From contig JAJRRO010000100.1 in assembly GCA_024279425.1 (NCBI GenBank), forward strand, positions 62,001-126,000: 64,000 nt of DNA. Direction: 5' to 3'. The position numbers were made by a program, and so were the translations under genes. Source of the stretch: Bacteroidota bacterium (GTDB lineage: Bacteria > Bacteroidota > Bacteroidia > Flavobacteriales > Flavobacteriaceae). The notes below the pieces were generated by a model. It was not told the origin of the DNA and did not search any database. It was given only the letters and a program-made list of their open reading frames with translations. Below, piece after piece: positions 3,342 through 8,409 of this stretch; positions within the stretch are counted from its first letter, which is position 1, and each line of letters opens with the position of its first letter.

Positions 3342-3617
3342 TTATTTTCCAACTACCATATTAGGAAAATGTTTTATAAGCTCATCATTGGGGTAATATA
3401 TATCATTTTCGAAAGGAGGTTTAATTTTGATAAAATGAAATTCAACAAATTTCATATGCTGTTCCCGGTCATACAGCTGCATGCCATGAAAACTTGTACG
3501 TATGTGATAACCTATGGCACTTTTGATAATGGGTTTGTTGATCGGGGGTGTCTCCTTGGAGGATAGTGTAACCTTTTCACCGTACAATTTGTAAGCTGGT
3601 GAAACATGATATGCCAT
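3342..3617 (-). CDS. Small unknown protein whose upstream region is split by the IS1595 element
   Basis: This 91-aa product starts MAYHVSPAYKLYGEKV and ends KHFPNMVVGK. It has no signal peptide, membrane segment or motif that I recognise. The ATG (3617-3615) overlaps the 8-bp target duplication of the adjacent transposon, so the element inserted exactly at the 5' end of this gene and cut off its native promoter. A longer reading from a TTG at 3638 would start inside the terminal inverted repeat and is less likely ancestral. It may also be the 3' part of a longer gene: after rejoining the flanks, an in-frame stop lies 15 bases before the ATG, which argues against that. Confidence 0.5.
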   Translation of the reverse strand: MAYHVSPAYKLYGEKVTLSSKETPPINKPIIKSAIGYHIRTSFHGMQLYDREQHMKFVEFHFIKIKPPFENDIYYPNDELIKHFPNMVVGK

Positions 3618-3623
3618 AATTAA
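3616..3623. repeat. Target-site duplication, left copy
   Basis: ATAATTAA directly precedes the left inverted repeat and is repeated directly after the right one at 7917-7924. Eight-base AT-rich duplications are typical of IS1595-family insertion. Confidence 0.85.
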
Positions 3624-3651
3624 GGCATCTATATACAATGTGGGCGAGTAA
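3624..3651 (+). repeat. Left terminal inverted repeat
   Basis: These 28 bases are identical to the reverse complement of 7889-7916 and diverge immediately inside. They start with GG as is usual for IS1595 ends. Confidence 0.85.
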
Positions 3652-3894
3652 GACTTAACAAGGTGGGCTTCTTATTAAAAAATCGAACTTCAAACCACCA
3701 GAATCGCTAAATAAATCGTAAATATTTGGATCGAATCAGTATATTCATTACATTTGAAGCAAGAAAAAAGGCCAAAAACCGTTAGGTTAATGACCTTTTG
3801 ACTACCTGTTAGCGCAGGATTTCAGAAGTGATTTTTTTGGAGTGTATAGGAATCTAGTTGATGAGACTAGCCCTAGCTTAACTTTCAGACTGTA

Positions 3895-3960
3895 TATATT
3901 TGCAGTCCTTACTAAAATATCACTACCTTATATTTTGAAGCACCCATATAGGGTGCTTTT
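3895..3960 (+). ncRNA. Candidate short RNA: tRNA-type promoter followed by an intrinsic terminator
   Basis: A perfect -7 box TATATTTG (3895-3902) is followed by CAGTCCT, the same discriminator that follows the tRNA-Leu promoter at 58440. No ORF follows. About 35 bases later there is an 8-bp GC-rich hairpin, AAGCACCC-loop-GGGTGCTT, with a T tract (3938-3960). No TTTG -33 box is evident. The rest of 3652-3960 holds no recognisable gene. It could be an RNA of about 55 nt or the relic of a lost stable-RNA gene. Confidence 0.35.
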
Positions 3961-4497
3961 CTAATCTATATCGAATAGGCTATTGGACTTTTTTCCTGAA
4001 CCTCCATGGTGCAAATACTTCTTGTTATACATATATTCCTTTTTAATCTCACCATTTTCATCAAGCCATTTTGGTATTCCCCAAAAACTATTTCTGTTTT
4101 GGTTGCCATGTTGATACTTAACAATAGTCCCGTTTTTTTTCAGGGTTTGTGTTGATGAAGACAATTTTTTGGCAACATCCGCGGGTTCTTCATTAGAGTT
4201 TTCGGCATAGACAATCATTTCAGATACTTCTCTAAAGTGTAAAAACCTCTTCTCCTTACTTAAAAAGAAAGCAAATTTTTGAGATAATGGCGCACTCTTG
4301 TCGTACCCCCTCAAATCTATGGTATTACTGTCATTCTCTTTTGGGGCAACTTCGGAACTAATCTTGGGTTGCGTTGAAGTTTTACTTTTTTGTCTTAGGG
4401 AATCAATTGATGAATCTAAGATTTCTATTTCTTTGATTAATTCATCTCTTCGCTCCATCAGTGCTTCAATGGCAATTTCATACTTATTATTTGTCAT
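3961..4497 (-). CDS. Transposon passenger protein with coiled coil and winged-helix-like region
   Basis: This 178-aa protein has a predicted coiled coil at residues 5-37 (AIEALMERRDELIKEIEIL). A low-complexity linker rich in S, T and N follows. Residues 68-145 look like a winged-helix of the kind with a hydrophobic core FLSKEKRFLHFREVSEMI and an aromatic wing YQHGNQNRNSFWGIPKW. The tail is basic. DNA binding or regulation is an inference. It lies downstream of the tRNA-like sequence and a strong minus-strand promoter, and may be read from it. Confidence 0.65.
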   Translation of the reverse strand: MTNNKYEIAIEALMERRDELIKEIEILDSSIDSLRQKSKTSTQPKISSEVAPKENDSNTIDLRGYDKSAPLSQKFAFFLSKEKRFLHFREVSEMIVYAENSNEEPADVAKKLSSSTQTLKKNGTIVKYQHGNQNRNSFWGIPKWLDENGEIKKEYMYNKKYLHHGGSGKKSNSLFDID

Positions 4498-4532
4498 AAG
4501 TCAAAAATTTAGTACCTTGCGGTATAATTAAG

Positions 4533-4605
4533 GGCTTGCAAAAGGAATCGAACCTTATTTCTCCACCTTATCAGGATGGTGTTTTAAACCGATAAACTAG
4601 CAAGC
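4533..4605 (-). tRNA. Divergent tRNA-Ile(GAU)-like cloverleaf inside the transposon
   Basis: Reading the minus strand, GCTTGC pairs with GCAAGC as the acceptor, and GTTT pairs with AAAC as the D stem with GG in its loop. CCATC pairs with GGTGG around the anticodon loop CTGATAA (anticodon GAT, 4572-4570), and AAGG/CCTT closes a canonical TTCGATT T loop. Deviations are a shifted position 8/9, a T-T mismatch at the stem junction and C instead of A as discriminator; CCA is not encoded. It is either a diverged functional tRNA-Ile or a tRNA-like RNA. Confidence 0.55.
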
Positions 4606-4612
4606 GATCAAA

Positions 4613-4655
4613 ATAAAAAAGGTGTTTCTTGTTTGGCGACTAGGACACCTTTTTT
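4613..4655. terminator. Strong hairpin with T tracts on both strands
   Basis: AAAAAAGGTGT pairs with ACACCTTTTTT around a 19-base loop. On the minus strand it lies between a promoter (4669-4699) and the tRNA-like sequence, so it could attenuate or terminate a short RNA. It is also usable on the plus strand. Confidence 0.6.
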
Positions 4656-4668
4656 CATTCCTATGATT

Positions 4669-4699
4669 CAAAGGTAATGCTTTTTACTTAATACACAAA
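4669..4699 (-). promoter_or_regulatory. Promoter reading toward the tRNA-like sequence
   Basis: On the minus strand TTTG (4699-4696) and TACCTTTG (4676-4669) are 19 bases apart, a full match to the Bacteroidota housekeeping promoter. The stretch 4700-4918 upstream holds no recognisable gene. Confidence 0.6.
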
Positions 4700-4918
4700 C
4701 GGATAATATACACTTTATAATACATAAATAGACACTTCGAGAAAGGTTTGTGATGCATTAACAATAAACATCCCTTTAAATATAAGGGATGCATTGTAGT
4801 TTATCGATTAACACCCACAGAAATAGGGGTGCTGGAAACGTGTGATTTTATTAAATAATGTTTAAAACCTGTTAATAAGTAGCTGTTTTATAGAGTTAAT
4901 CACATGTTTTTTAGCAAA

Positions 4919-5125
4919 TCATCTGTGTTTTACCTTAAATATTTTGTATTCAGCGAACTCAATTGGGTTTTCTTCTTTCCTTACTAAAGTCCAATAGCTT
5001 GGAAAATTCTTCCCCTCCATAAACTCCGTAATCTTTTTAAGATTTCCGAACGTACCTAAAGGCACGCATTCTTTTAGAAGTACATAGTATTTTTTGTTTT
5101 TCTGCTGCTCTTTGTATGTAGTCAT
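4919..5125 (-). CDS. Small unknown transposon passenger protein
   Basis: This 68-aa basic protein contains KKYYVLLKECVPLGTFGNLK and ends EYKIFKVKHR. No family is recognised. The ATG at 5125 is chosen over a codon 15 bases upstream because TACATTTG, a -7 box on the minus strand, lies 4-5 bases before it, which would give a nearly leaderless transcript. It is divergent from the transposase and shares a short operator-like intergenic region with it. Its spacing of YV..K, GxFGNL, Y...R and Y.I.KV is weakly echoed by the 72-aa product at 7350-7568. Confidence 0.55.
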   Translation of the reverse strand: MTTYKEQQKNKKYYVLLKECVPLGTFGNLKKITEFMEGKNFPSYWTLVRKEENPIEFAEYKIFKVKHR

Positions 5126-5141
5126 AATACAAATGTACAAC

Positions 5142-5187
5142 TATATTCGAAATTATTTGCATATACCAATATATTCGAGTATATTTG
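5142..5187 (+). promoter_or_regulatory. Transposase promoter overlapped by operator-like repeats
   Basis: TTTG (5156-5159), 20 bases, then TATATTTG (5180-5187) gives a consensus promoter 20 bases before the transposase ATG. TATATTCGA occurs twice (5142-5150 and 5170-5178), 28 bases apart. The second copy lies in a near-palindrome AATATATTCGAGTATATT that overlaps the -7 box, as a repressor site would. Confidence 0.6.
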
Positions 5188-5206
5188 TATAACAAAACAA
5201 TCAGCC

Positions 5207-6145
5207 ATGCAATTCAAATCACTTCCACAGCTTTTAGATTACTTCAAAGAAGAAAGTACTTGTATTGAATATTACGAGAACTTGCGTTGGGGAAATGAAC
5301 CTGCTTGTCCCCATTGCGGTTGTGTTACTGTACATAGAACCCAAAGAGGTTGGAGATGTAGCACTAAAGGTTGTGGTAAGAAGTTTACGGTACGTACGGG
5401 AACTATTTTTGAGCAATCAAATATCAAATTTCGTATTTGGTTCGCTGCTATTTGGTTGGCAACGGAGCATAAGAAAGGGATTAGTTCTGTACAGTTGGGA
5501 ATTGATTTAGGAATCACACAAAAAACGGCATGGTTCGTACTTCATAGAATTAGAGAAATGCTGAAAGAAAAAGCCCCACAAATGTTGGGTGAGGATAAAA
5601 TGGTTGAAACCGATGCTACCTACATAGGGGGCAAGGAACGAAACAAGCACCTTAATAAAAGACGTTCGCATGATGATAAATCGTTGACTAATGAAGGTAA
5701 GCCATTCAAGGCAAAGAAAACCATCATAGGTATCATTGAGCGTAATGGTAAGGTGGCCTTAAGGTATGTTTCGGGTGAGACTACCCAAAATATGGTTTCG
5801 TTTGTTGAAACGCATGTACCACAGGATAGTACTATCTATTCGGATGAAGCACCAGCGTACAAGCAATTGAAAAGAACCTATAAGCACGATAACGTTAAGC
5901 ACGCACTTAATATCTATGTAGAGGGGCAAGTACATACCAATACAATAGAAAACTTTTGGAGTGTTCTTAAAAGGGGTTTATATGGCGTGTATCATCAGGT
6001 AAGCGATAAGCATATTAGCCGTTATCTGGACGAATACGCAGCGAGGTTCAATAATCGTAGCAAGACTTCCAATGAGCGTTTTAATCTGTTTTTAGAAGGG
6101 AGTGAGAGTGTTTTGAGTTATAAAGCTTTAATAGTGAATAAATAA
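5207..6145 (+). CDS. IS1595-family (ISXO2-like) transposase
   Basis: This 312-aa DDE transposase opens with an N-terminal zinc ribbon (CPHCG at residues 35-39 and a second Cys pair around CSTKGCGKKF). A helix-turn-helix-like region follows (GISSVQLGIDLGITQKTAWF). The catalytic core has ETDATYIGG near 143 (first D), YSDEAPAY near 212 and NTIENFWSVLKRG near 247, as in the DDE_Tnp_IS1595 domain. Length is normal and the frame is intact. It catalyses transposition of the surrounding 4.3-kb element through the terminal inverted repeats at 3624 and 7916. Confidence 0.93.
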   Translation: MQFKSLPQLLDYFKEESTCIEYYENLRWGNEPACPHCGCVTVHRTQRGWRCSTKGCGKKFTVRTGTIFEQSNIKFRIWFAAIWLATEHKKGISSVQLGIDLGITQKTAWFVLHRIREMLKEKAPQMLGEDKMVETDATYIGGKERNKHLNKRRSHDDKSLTNEGKPFKAKKTIIGIIERNGKVALRYVSGETTQNMVSFVETHVPQDSTIYSDEAPAYKQLKRTYKHDNVKHALNIYVEGQVHTNTIENFWSVLKRGLYGVYHQVSDKHISRYLDEYAARFNNRSKTSNERFNLFLEGSESVLSYKALIVNK

Positions 6146-6221
6146 AAAGTTATTGGGAAGTGTATTATTACTATATTGCAGTTGTTTACCTACAATCGCT
6201 ACTCCCCAGTAACTTTTTAAA
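6145..6221. terminator. Long hairpin after the transposase
   Basis: AAAAAGTTA.TGGG.AGT (6145-6163) is nearly complementary to ACT.CCCA.TAACTTTTT (6203-6220), with about 40 bases between. It ends the transposase transcript or separates it from the 223-aa gene that starts 11 bases further on. Confidence 0.5.
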
Positions 6222-6231
6222 TTGATTCAAT

Positions 6232-6903
6232 ATGGCTAAGGTAAAGGAGGTTAAAGAGCCTCGATTCTCTGTAAACAAGTTAGGGGAATATATGGGTGCA
6301 AAAGCTTCAAGAAGAAGAAAATTGATACACGACCAGAAGTACCCCTCACCTTTCATGACGTCTAGATATCGTGTAGCAAGAGAAGCTATTGTGAAGTTTT
6401 TCATAAGTGGTTACGATGAAACAATTATTACCCAAGCGATAGACGAAATTAGAGTTTCCGCTCTTAAAGATGAGGAAAAGGATAATTCTATACTCGCGCT
6501 AGAAGAGATTTTAAAGACAGACCTGCCAGATTTGGATGGGGTAACAATTCAGAGATACAACCCTAGAAAAAAACCTAAGTTGACTGTTAAAGGCCTTGAT
6601 GTCAGCGTAAATCCTGATTTGGTACTTATGAAAGATGATAAAGTGGGGTGTTTGAAAGTACACATTATAAAAACTGTAAGCAGCCGATTGAACAATGAGG
6701 CGCAAAAACTTGTAGGAACTATGCTGACAAATTTCACAGATCTATACTTGACAGAAGAAGACACACCACCTTTTAAGAACTATTGTATATCTGTTGATTG
6801 TTTTGGCAATTCGTATGAAGTTGCACCGAAATCAGATTCAAGACGATGGGCGGATATTGAGGCGGCTTGTGAAGAAATTGCCCTTCGTTGGGAATCTATA
6901 TAA
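6232..6903 (+). CDS. Unknown 223-aa passenger protein, possibly nuclease-like
   Basis: The N-terminal 60 residues (FSVNKLGEYMGAKASRRRKL then a basic RYRVAREAIVKFF) look like a nucleic-acid-binding helical domain. The C-terminal half alternates beta strands and helices, with VNPDLVLM and CLKVHIIK spaced roughly like a PD-(D/E)xK core. The catalytic E/Q-x-K is replaced by LKV, so nuclease activity is only a guess. Its 3' 124 bases overlap the antisense 3' end of the HNH gene. I do not recognise a named family. Confidence 0.6.
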   Translation: MAKVKEVKEPRFSVNKLGEYMGAKASRRRKLIHDQKYPSPFMTSRYRVAREAIVKFFISGYDETIITQAIDEIRVSALKDEEKDNSILALEEILKTDLPDLDGVTIQRYNPRKKPKLTVKGLDVSVNPDLVLMKDDKVGCLKVHIIKTVSSRLNNEAQKLVGTMLTNFTDLYLTEEDTPPFKNYCISVDCFGNSYEVAPKSDSRRWADIEAACEEIALRWESI

Positions 6904-7256
6904 GTTTTGACTTTGTGACAGTCTTCGCACAAGGTTTGAAAATTATCTATCCCACATGCCGAACCTCCTAAAAATACTGGTTTGATGTGGTCAGCGCACC
7001 ATTGATTAGAATGAACTCCGCACTCTCTGCAATATCCTTTTTCTAATTCAAATAGTTTTTTCCTTATCAAGCTAGTGTCCCCTTTAACAATTAGGAATGT
7101 GATTACTGCGTTTTCTTGACATTCTCCCGTTGCCCACCTTTTTTTTCGTCCCTCTAATTCTCTACCACATCCGCAAGCACACAAACCATCTTTTCTAATA
7201 GGGTACAGGGCACTTAATTTTAGGCCAACCTGATATCTCTTGTATATGTTAATCAT
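6780..7256 (-). CDS. HNH endonuclease
   Basis: This 158-aa protein has two Cys-pair knuckles, CACGCGRE near residue 27 and CRECG near 76. They flank an HNH core CADHIKPVFLGG...NFQTLCEDCH (residues 87-113), in which DH supplies the general base, N the middle residue and CEDCH the end. The 45 residues after the core are polar and are encoded opposite the 3' end of the 223-aa gene. It is carried by the transposon and could be a homing, defence or cargo nuclease. A minus-strand -7 box (CAAATATA, about 7296) precedes it. Confidence 0.82.
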   Translation of the reverse strand: MINIYKRYQVGLKLSALYPIRKDGLCACGCGRELEGRKKRWATGECQENAVITFLIVKGDTSLIRKKLFELEKGYCRECGVHSNQWCADHIKPVFLGGSACGIDNFQTLCEDCHKVKTYIDSQRRAISSQAASISAHRLESDFGATSYELPKQSTDIQ

Positions 7257-7295
7257 TTGCGAAATAAAGTTATCTTAGCAAGTCACAACTATTAT

Positions 7296-7340
7296 CAAAT
7301 ATACGTACTATTTATATTTAATGATTAATAATACGTATTA
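7296..7340. promoter_or_regulatory. Divergent control region with two TACGTA boxes
   Basis: TACGTA occurs at 7302-7307 and 7332-7337, 30 bases apart, between the HNH gene (minus) and the 72-aa gene (plus). A minus-strand -7 box overlaps the first. The arrangement resembles an autoregulated divergent promoter. Confidence 0.35.
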
Positions 7341-7349
7341 AAAGTCAAC

Positions 7350-7568
7350 ATGATACGTGACCTGAAAGCCCTATATGTAGCCATTAAAGATCGTGAAGTC
7401 GTGTGTTTTGGCACTAACTTGTCGGGGTTTTTAAGGAAATTCCAAGAAATTGAGCCAGACATGAAGGATTATCAGCACTATAGGAGAGAATTTAAAAAAG
7501 CGAATGTTATACCATACACCAATTCTAAAAGAGAAACTTATATTTTACAGAAAGTCTTAGGTAAGTAG
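7350..7568 (+). CDS. Small unknown transposon passenger protein
   Basis: This 72-aa basic protein begins MIRDLKALYVAIKDREVV and has an FGTNLSGFLRKF helix and a C-terminal ETYILQKVLGK strand. No family is recognised. The layout resembles the 68-aa product at 4919-5125 (YV..K, G.NL, Y..R, I, Y.I.KV), so the two may be distant paralogues within the same element. The next gene starts 12 bases downstream but has its own -7 box. Confidence 0.55.
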   Translation: MIRDLKALYVAIKDREVVCFGTNLSGFLRKFQEIEPDMKDYQHYRREFKKANVIPYTNSKRETYILQKVLGK

Positions 7569-7576
7569 TAACTTTG
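7569..7576 (+). promoter_or_regulatory. -7 box of the 40-aa gene
   Basis: TAACTTTG matches TAnnTTTG and ends 4 bases before the ATG at 7581, implying an almost leaderless mRNA. Confidence 0.45.
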
Positions 7577-7580
7577 TAAT

Positions 7581-7703
7581 ATGTCACAGGGCAAACCCAC
7601 AAAAAAGAAAAAGGAACGCTCCAAGAAGTACGAGGAGAAGTTGAAAATCGACGGCACTTTTGACGACGTGCTGAAGGTATCCGTTCCGAAAAAGAAAAAG
7701 TAG
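7581..7703 (+). CDS. Lysine-rich 40-aa protein
   Basis: The product runs MSQGKPTKKKKERSKK, then YEEKLKIDGTFDDVLKVSV, then PKKKK. The central motif YEEKLxIxGTFDDVLKVSV resembles short basic proteins commonly annotated as hypothetical in Bacteroidota, which supports it as real. Both termini are lysine-rich, suggesting nucleic-acid binding. A consensus -7 box lies directly before the ATG. It is the last gene inside the right end of the transposon. Confidence 0.6.
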   Translation: MSQGKPTKKKKERSKKYEEKLKIDGTFDDVLKVSVPKKKK

Positions 7704-7888
7704 CACATCGTTTTTGGACGTAGGTCGGGAAACATATCGACCGTGTGCATATGCTCTTTGAAATGCAAGAGGTGCTTAGAGGACTGTTTCTCCCTATGCT
7801 CTGTCCACTGAAATAGTGGTGGTACAATCATGAAGTACCGAACTTGCAAAAAAAATGGATGGCCTCACATCCGAAACTTTACTTTATT

Positions 7889-7916
7889 TTACTCGCCCAC
7901 ATTGTATATAGATGCC
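7889..7916 (-). repeat. Right terminal inverted repeat
   Basis: Exact reverse complement of the left end (3624-3651). The ATAATTAA duplication follows at 7917-7924. Confidence 0.85.
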
Positions 7917-7924
7917 ATAATTAA
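7917..7924. repeat. Target-site duplication, right copy
   Basis: ATAATTAA, identical to 3616-3623. The 150 bases from here to ssb hold no gene but contain a TAGGTTTG -7 box near 8010. Confidence 0.85.
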
Positions 7925-8076
7925 GGTAAATTAATCGGTTTTAAACGACTACAGCCGTTTACAAACGAAAGTAAGTATTTTGTAACCGAATCGGTTTTGC
8001 TTTGTGTTCTAGGTTTGCATCGTCGGGTCAAGGAGGCTCGGTAGTATTAACTGTTTAACCTTAAAATTTAATTAGT

Positions 8077-8409
8077 ATGAACGCACTTAGAAACAAAGTA
8101 CAGTTGATTGGAAACTTGGGTAATGACCCAGAAATTGTAAACTTGGATGGCGGCAACAAACTTGCCAAATTTTCCATCGCCACGAACGAAACCTATAAAA
8201 ATGCAAAAGGTGAAAAAGTAACCGATACCCAATGGCATAATGTAGTCGCCTGGGGCAAGACCGCAGAGATTGTAGAGAACTACCTGACCAAGGGCAACGA
8301 GGTTGCTGTGGAAGGAAAGCTTATCCATCGCAGCTATGAAACCAAGGAAGGTGAAAAAAGGTATATCACCGAAATCAGATGTAACGAACTTCTGATGTTG
8401 GGGAAATAG
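8077..8409 (+). CDS. ssb: Single-stranded DNA-binding protein
   Basis: This 110-aa OB-fold protein has the typical start MNALRNKVQLIGNLGNDPEI, the core KFSIATNETYKN and the block TQWHNVVAWGKTAE..NYLTKGNEVAVEGKL. It binds ssDNA during replication and repair. It is short and lacks the long Gly-rich linker and acidic DDxPF-like tail of the main replicative SSB, so it is probably an accessory paralogue. It stands alone between the transposon and a repeat-rich gap. Confidence 0.92.
   Translation: MNALRNKVQLIGNLGNDPEIVNLDGGNKLAKFSIATNETYKNAKGEKVTDTQWHNVVAWGKTAEIVENYLTKGNEVAVEGKLIHRSYETKEGEKRYITEIRCNELLMLGK

Follow-up and report, generated by a model that had tools for sequence, protein, structure and literature searches.

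Passenger-gene IS1595 transposons of Flavobacteriaceae: probable preference for a repeat array upstream of a short ssb gene, and accompanying structured RNA modules

This work concerns a 4,293-bp transposon of the IS1595 family, carrying cargo genes and a small structured RNA, which occupies positions 3624-7916 of a 64,000-nt stretch of contig JAJRRO010000100.1 from a Bacteroidota bacterium of the Flavobacteriaceae. We call this whole stretch the window, and coordinates without a further label refer to it; L and G numbers are our handles for loci and genomes. Comparison of the transposon with its relatives leads us to think it likely that it is an autonomous IS1595-family element of the passenger-gene kind (an insertion sequence with passenger genes, tIS), and that it belongs to lineages in Flavobacteriaceae with one preferred target, where they land beside a repeat array of the host that precedes a short ssb gene. 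The tIS type was known already; new, as far as we have seen, are the oriented preference for the ssb array and the RNA modules that many of the elements carry, and we found no report of IS1595 targeting of ssb or of directed insertion by IS1595 elements in the open-access literature.

The transposon in the window

The element is bounded by terminal inverted repeats of 28 bp (left, 3624-3651, plus strand; right, 7889-7916, minus strand) that agree at 28 of 28 positions, and by two copies of an 8-bp target-site duplication, ATAATTAA, read from the sequence at 3616-3623 and 7917-7924. The direct repeat called by the program is 15 nt long and not 8, because the adjoining bases agree by coincidence. 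Between the ends lies a complete DDE transposase of 312 aa (5207-6145, plus strand), identified as IS1595 by Pfam and NCBIfam: the catalytic domain PF12762 scores 124 bits against a cut-off of 27 (E 7e-36), the N-terminal zinc ribbon PF12760 35.9 bits against 25.4 (E 7.5e-9), and NCBIfam NF033547 176 bits against 75. Residues D136, D213 and E248, which from their position we take to be the catalytic triad, are invariant in the transposases of all 39 delimited elements described below. The terminal inverted repeats and the 8-bp duplication are those of an IS1595 element, and genes unrelated to transposition between the ends (an HNH endonuclease and a 223-aa protein in the window) are those of a tIS. 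In its own genome, a 65-base probe from the left end matches only the two ends of this element.

The original prediction for this DNA, a complete IS1595-family transposon with cargo and exact ends, is borne out by these results. All of the cargo that it named (an HNH nuclease, a 223-aa protein, a winged-helix-like protein, three small proteins and a tRNA-like sequence) was located inside the element; its list lacked the structured RNA at 3823-3927 (minus strand) and the ssb gene and array just beyond the right end. The accompanying remark that such elements are rarely described can be kept only in part, as passenger-gene insertion sequences are already on record (PMC5704250), and 38 further elements plus 27 more from other orders of the same class are delimited here. 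The search for an empty site also gave a divided answer. Eight ssb loci of the same genus (L129-L136, fetched from a search of 11 same-genus genomes) all show the right flank with ssb and no transposase, but the left flank found no match in relatives and an exact joined site was not found among them. Ends of the same type enclosing differing cargo and flanked by differing duplications do occur elsewhere; the prediction had counted such a finding against itself, and it is what a mobile family shows.

Related elements and their landing site

The transposase search yielded 34 loci from genome contigs and one from viral contigs, and at E up to 1e-50 the transposase matched in 24 of 397 genomes of Flavobacteriaceae, its own included. 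A delimiting script based on inverted ends and an exact 8-bp duplication gave 36 further elements; L062 (duplication 7/8) and L071 (repeats present, duplication 3/8) were added by hand, which makes 39 with the window element. The duplication is therefore exact in 37 of the 39. Their lengths range from 2.2 to 5.8 kb, and the identity of the ends is modest in some (18-19 of 26 in L073, L106 and L108). A second sample from other orders comprised 37 places in 26 genomes, obtained from a search of 335 genomes of the same class, and three plasmid loci; 27 elements were delimited among these 40 loci, several of which are cut by contig ends. The three plasmid relatives, from Bacteroides/Phocaeicola (L167-L169), gave neither delimited ends nor a detected SSB.

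In 23 of the 39 elements, the start of an ssb gene lies 96-229 bp from one end, and the element is on the 5' side of ssb in all 23. In the window this is a short ssb gene of 110 aa (8077-8409, plus strand), named from reading its protein, and the SSB proteins beside the 23 elements are between 47% (L066) and 100% identical to it. A repeat array (TACAAACGAC..., with TTACAAACGACTACAAACGTTTACAAACGAAAGTAA and variants of it) is located between the element and ssb; the window copy (7939-7974, plus strand) is outside the element, 22 nt from its right end, and matches the array consensus at 32 of 36 positions. In all 23 ssb elements, the end turned towards the array is the right one, the end that follows the transposase; in 22 of them this is clear. 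Nineteen of them are upstream of the array, and the remaining four (L060, L066, L105 and L109) lie between the array and ssb and are reversed accordingly. The distance from the right end to the array core is 22-23 nt in 13 elements, 12-13 in five, 10 in three, 3 in one and 88 in one, and the core is still recognisable after insertion. The array match reaches 23-35 of 36 in the 23 ssb elements (at least 25 in 22 of them), compared with 17-22 in the other 16; in a random background, 1,983 of 2,000 windows score 23 or less and 17 score 27-35, the pool having included array-bearing loci. A stricter array pattern was also tried as a measure and discarded as too strict, with one match in the own genome and none in five others.

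We estimate the chance of landing near ssb at well under one in a thousand per insertion, with a few ssb genes in a genome of about 4 Mb. The 22 duplications in the ssb set are mutually different and therefore mark separate insertion events. The array was also present at 18 of 19 ssb loci whose SSB is at least 72% identical (the miss is L145), including eight of eight in the same genus; within the stretch examined, these 19 loci have no IS1595 transposase at E up to 0.001, and L124, one of the 18 with the array, carries a remnant. The occurrence of the array at transposase-free ssb loci indicates that it belongs to the host. Distant IS1595 copies (L007-L032), with only 1.5 kb of flank each, could not serve as an ssb control. 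Among 17 transposase loci that could not be delimited, ten have an ssb that lies 1.1-3.0 kb past the 3' side of the transposase and in every case is directed away from it, and none was detected in the other seven.

Several observations weigh against a preference for this site. Because the window's transposase was the query that gathered the loci, close relatives are over-represented; 16 of the 39 delimited elements are not near ssb, and members of the same clades are among them. In the transposase tree of 48 rows, the ssb label (on 27 rows in two clades, four of them undelimited) requires 11 changes; shuffled labels require 15.9 on average, and 7 of 500 shuffles are as low, so that the count is only modestly reduced. 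L071, with an array match of 23 of 36, scores at the top of the background range, and L063 is the element that sits 88 nt from its array. In L067 and L097, the closest ssb copy covers residues 1-57 only, and that of L066 has no more than 47% identity. In front of more distant ssb genes, those with an SSB under 72%, the array is less common and was present at 3 of 11. Steps of about 10 nt in the spacing suggest a register with the repeat unit, though the periodicity test (R 0.75 at 10, 0.85 at 11 and 0.75 at 13) does not single out 10 bp. Moreover, the winged-helix, 72-aa, 73-aa and 40-aa protein families are all missing from L105, L107 and L109, which are at ssb; with this absence, the recurrent small proteins are ruled out as general target readers. 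In the second sample, no SSB was found in the 40 other-order and plasmid loci with the window SSB as query at E up to 1, and the array match is at most 22 of 36 in all 27 elements delimited there. The habit is thus not general, while whether those genomes hold a short ssb with an array was left unchecked.

Some ssb neighbourhoods are irregular in themselves. The 57-residue ssb parts are at L067:9527-9697 and L097:8686-8856, and three ssb copies stand in a row beside the element at L071:10792-12091.

Traces of earlier insertions were also seen at the site. At L124:6069-6163 (minus strand) in G234, an RNA of module A (described below; 72.4 bits) lies 270 bp upstream of ssb among window-like neighbours and without a transposase; it is the remnant of a previous insertion there. 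A homologue of the 72-aa cargo protein at L165:5978-6193 (minus strand) in G109, upstream of a 55% identical ssb and with no transposase at E up to 0.001, is probably another. On the array side of the L105 element, some 1.3 kb past its right end, there is a module C match of 59.8 bits (L105:10393-10478, plus strand), which may be what remains of an older element stacked there. At L099:6779-11935, a single ssb is preceded by two related transposases with about 3.3 kb between them, which suggests repeated insertion at that place.

Choice of the target

What all the ssb elements share is the transposase, and for this reason we propose that the transposition complex at the right end does the docking, either directly on the array or by way of a host protein that occupies it. 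Such docking would bring the element down beside the array in a single orientation and leave ssb whole, making the site a safe harbour, and the structured RNAs would be accessory genes borne by the element, probably not its guide. A plainer explanation, which we consider unlikely, is that the AT-rich and harmless region before ssb is a hot spot where insertions survive and nothing is recognised. The elements found elsewhere agree with it, as does the sequence upstream of the array, which is very variable between species and holds remnants, but survival alone fails to explain either the common orientation of 23 of 23 elements or the clustered distance; the 40 other-order and plasmid loci without SSB have no bearing on this point, given the unchecked state of their genomes. 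Vertical inheritance of one ancient insertion at ssb, with no repeated targeting, would account for elements at the same place in many genera and for the remnants in G234 and G109. We nevertheless give it hardly any credence, since the duplications of the ssb set all differ from one another and yet the two copies within each element agree (7/8 in L062), and since the elements are found on either side of the array and come from two transposase clades.

It is also conceivable that the structured RNAs direct insertion, in the manner of bridge RNAs or CRISPR-associated transposons. Covarying modules are present inside many elements, module C matches occur outside the delimited elements at the L105 (59.8 bits) and L099 (27.2 bits) loci, and a trans-acting RNA elsewhere in the genome, or one that we did not model, could act. 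However, eight of the 23 ssb elements (L062, L063, L070, L071, L099, L105, L107 and L109) have no module A, B or C between their ends, and five others (L061, L064, L068, L079 and L092) have modules and are away from ssb. The modelled RNAs and ssb targeting are therefore separable inside elements, the RNA is probably not the guide, and we regard RNA-guided targeting as very unlikely. Recognition of the array as an imitation of the transposon's own terminal repeat is highly improbable: TACAAA-like stretches can be seen by eye in both, but the inner repeat, at its best match to the flank, agrees at a mean of 11.3 of 20 positions against 10.9 for shuffled repeats in the 23 elements, with p <0.05 in two of the 23, so that a look-alike target was not supported when tested.

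Comparison with known systems

Few types of transposon are known to direct their insertion to a safe place in the chromosome. Tn7 inserts at attTn7 downstream of glmS, with a 5-bp duplication, and leaves the gene whole. The elements described here are like Tn7 in outcome only, namely in a single orientation, a clustered distance from a conserved feature by a housekeeping-type gene, and the integrity of that gene. Their duplication is 8 bp and not 5 bp, their target is upstream of ssb and not downstream of glmS, and they are not members of the Tn7 group; no TnsABC- or TniQ-like protein appeared among the family matches of the window proteins or the Pfam matches of 67 cargo proteins. If oriented homing by a single transposase is true, it would be a simpler system than Tn7 for target choice by DDE enzymes, and possibly a minimal tool to place DNA in Flavobacteria.

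The bridge RNA of IS110 and the omega RNA of IS200/IS605 are structured RNAs encoded by insertion sequences, and our modules are alike in being structured RNAs borne by an insertion sequence. The DDE transposase here is nevertheless of another family, and the modelled RNAs are missing from some elements at the preferred target. With regard to tIS, MTnSag1/tISSag10 and tISCpe8 are reported to have an IS1595 DDE transposase, 25-bp inverted repeats, an 8-bp duplication and passenger genes; these known tIS can be mobilised by conjugative elements, and tISCpe8 is a lincomycin-resistance element (PMC5704250). The window element is like them in transposase, inverted repeats (28 bp here compared with 25 bp), 8-bp duplication and passengers, and the family described here differs from them in its other cargo, its structured RNAs and its one preferred target site.

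Structured RNA modules

At least one of modules A, B and C is present in 20 of the 39 elements, 19 of them known from the alignments and the other being L059; the modules were picked by eye from noncoding stretches conserved between elements. In the window, module A is at 3823-3927 (minus strand), with a covariance-model core at 3827-3921 and a match of 88.1 bits, this being a training sequence. Across nine sequences, 12 of the 24 pairs of module A are changed on both sides, and its covariation is 0.458 against 0.192 for shuffled alignments, with 0 of 500 shuffles as high. Run on 56 loci, its model gives 11 strong matches, of which those in L069 and L101 were outside the training set. Among 299 genomes of the family, there were five strong matches (three training elements, the L101 locus and the G234 remnant) and two weak ones; in a sample of 296 genomes from the order, the window's own copy was the sole match. 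A weak module-A match immediately upstream of a cas9-like gene in G143 (L125:5572-5660; 29 bits, E 0.004 per genome, 299 genomes searched) is probably due to chance.

Module B, a hairpin, has 6 of 11 pairs changed on both sides in eight sequences, and module C has 10 of 19 in six, the structures of both having been predicted on the same sequences that were used for covariation. Their models find the training sequences again and in addition detect L059 (C 82.1 bits, B 27.6); the module C model also adds L100 (53.9 bits) and the outlying L105 match mentioned above. Modules A and C gave nothing convincing outside the order. Weak module B matches were found in two delimited elements of other orders, at L211:4401-4490 (minus strand, 29.9 bits) and L199:7063-7153 (minus strand, 23.7 bits). 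The hairpin loop is exactly CUCAUUA in each, and the RNAs therefore reach further than the ssb habit. Directly before the L199 match is a T-arm-like stretch, GGGTTCGATTCCC.

The hairpin loops of these modules have a common look. Module A has a 7-nt loop NUCAUNA in nine of nine sequences on a stem of about 5 bp, the closing pair being non-standard in three; module B has a 7-nt loop beginning NUCAU in eight of eight, ending in A in seven, also on a stem of about 5 bp; and module C has CAU in the loop of its second hairpin in six of six and of its first in five of six. In loop size, U-turn and CAU they resemble the anticodon arm of a methionine or isoleucine-2 tRNA; the base after CAU is often U in the modules, and to our knowledge tRNAs do not have U there. 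Module D, in L060, L072, L073 and L077, consists of paired hairpins with CUUCCAAA loops, which we take to resemble those of tRNA-Gly UCC. In all 39 elements together there are 35 CAU hairpins, a count that includes coding and chance matches, against a mean of 13.9 and a maximum of 19 in 20 two-base-block shuffles.

Modules A, B and C matched none of 4,227 Rfam families at gathering in the nine loci scanned (the window element at E up to 5; L060, L064, L066, L067, L070, L077, L079 and L085 at E up to 1), where the Rfam matches were tRNA, one tmRNA-like and others below threshold. They are structured RNAs that bear no family name and have a tRNA-like feature open to testing. Because the loops look like CAU anticodon loops, our guess is that the modules act as tRNA-like decoys or regulators, or as antitoxins against anticodon-cutting nucleases. 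A bolder proposal, to which we assign a low probability, joins attTn7-like homing by way of the array with a new modular class of RNA that copies anticodon arms (CAU, and UCC in module D); for the cargo, these RNAs would be decoys, substrates or antitoxins of nucleases that cut anticodons.

tRNA-like gene

The window element also has a tRNA-like gene with anticodon GAT (4532-4605, minus strand), called tRNA-Ile(GAT) by ARAGORN and scoring 42.3 bits with RF00005 against a gathering score of 29. Its stems are imperfect, the last pair of the acceptor stem being mismatched and the first pair of the T stem broken, so that the complete acceptor and T stems of a tRNA are not present. Its end is 34 nt from the start of the winged-helix gene, and just 5' of it an A-run, a hairpin and a T-run can be recognised by eye (4614-4655, minus strand); similar hairpins were seen by eye upstream of the gene in L060, L064, L066 and L079. 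ARAGORN called tRNAs in six of the 39 elements, one of them of unclear type, and the L064 gene is likewise above the RF00005 gathering score. The same slot 5' of the winged-helix gene is occupied in L060 by a tmRNA-like match (L060:7487-7555, minus strand; RF00023, 29 bits against a gathering score of 47). These element genes differ from tRNA (RF00005) and tmRNA (RF00023) in their imperfect stems and in the differing identities that occur in one slot.

Cargo proteins

The leftmost protein gene of the window element (3961-4497, minus strand; homologues in 11 of 39 elements) encodes a 178-aa protein with no Pfam family above the cut-off. In its structure model (mean pLDDT 81), a long N-terminal helix is followed by a helix-helix-helix-strand-strand domain, which we read as a probable winged helix; no PDB fold matched at E <=0.001, the best being of MarR/PadR/Fur type at about 0.02. 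A small protein of 73 aa (4919-5140, minus strand) has homologues in nine of the 39 elements. The 223-aa protein is an open reading frame at 6232-6903 (plus strand) that matched nothing in Pfam (E up to 1) or PADLOC (E up to 0.001) and has only a sub-cut-off match in NCBIfam, and it is overlapped tail to tail by the gene for the HNH endonuclease (6780-7256, minus strand; PF01844 at E 2.1e-6 and PHROG HNH families). A 72-aa protein (7350-7568, plus strand; homologues in 13 of 39) is modelled as beta-beta-alpha-alpha-beta-beta with a pLDDT of 92; its match to DUF5678 is below the cut-off (E 0.0044), and no PDB fold matched at E up to 0.001 (best 0.78). The last gene encodes a lysine-rich protein of 40 aa (7581-7703, plus strand), whose BLAST family is present in 24 of the 39 elements; these are the very elements that make up the delimited part of transposase clade I. 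About 200 bp of noncoding DNA between this gene and the right repeat (7704-7888) is conserved across the right ends of several elements.

Across the elements, 67 cargo proteins were hand-picked from the maps and scanned with Pfam and with PADLOC, whose profiles represent known and candidate defence proteins. The Pfam names were NYN (4), P63C (3), RadC (3), DUF3800 (3), RelA/SpoT (2) and IrrE (2), with others once or twice, and none of the 23 Pfam families matched is a relaxase. Among the 25 of 132 PADLOC profiles listed were HEC-09 (4), NYN (4), PDC-S33 (2), PDC-S13 (2), RmrA (2) and PD-Lambda-2_B (2). The cargo varies between elements and includes genes resembling known or candidate phage-defence genes. 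The ssb site would be a spot at which to search for compact defence-like genes.

A pair of such components was also seen apart from a transposase. At L126:5197-5747 (plus strand) in G187, a weak module-A-like RNA (28 bits) directly precedes a homologue of the 72-aa protein, adjoining genes that read like terminase and TnpB, with no IS1595 transposase; this pair may travel outside IS1595 elements.

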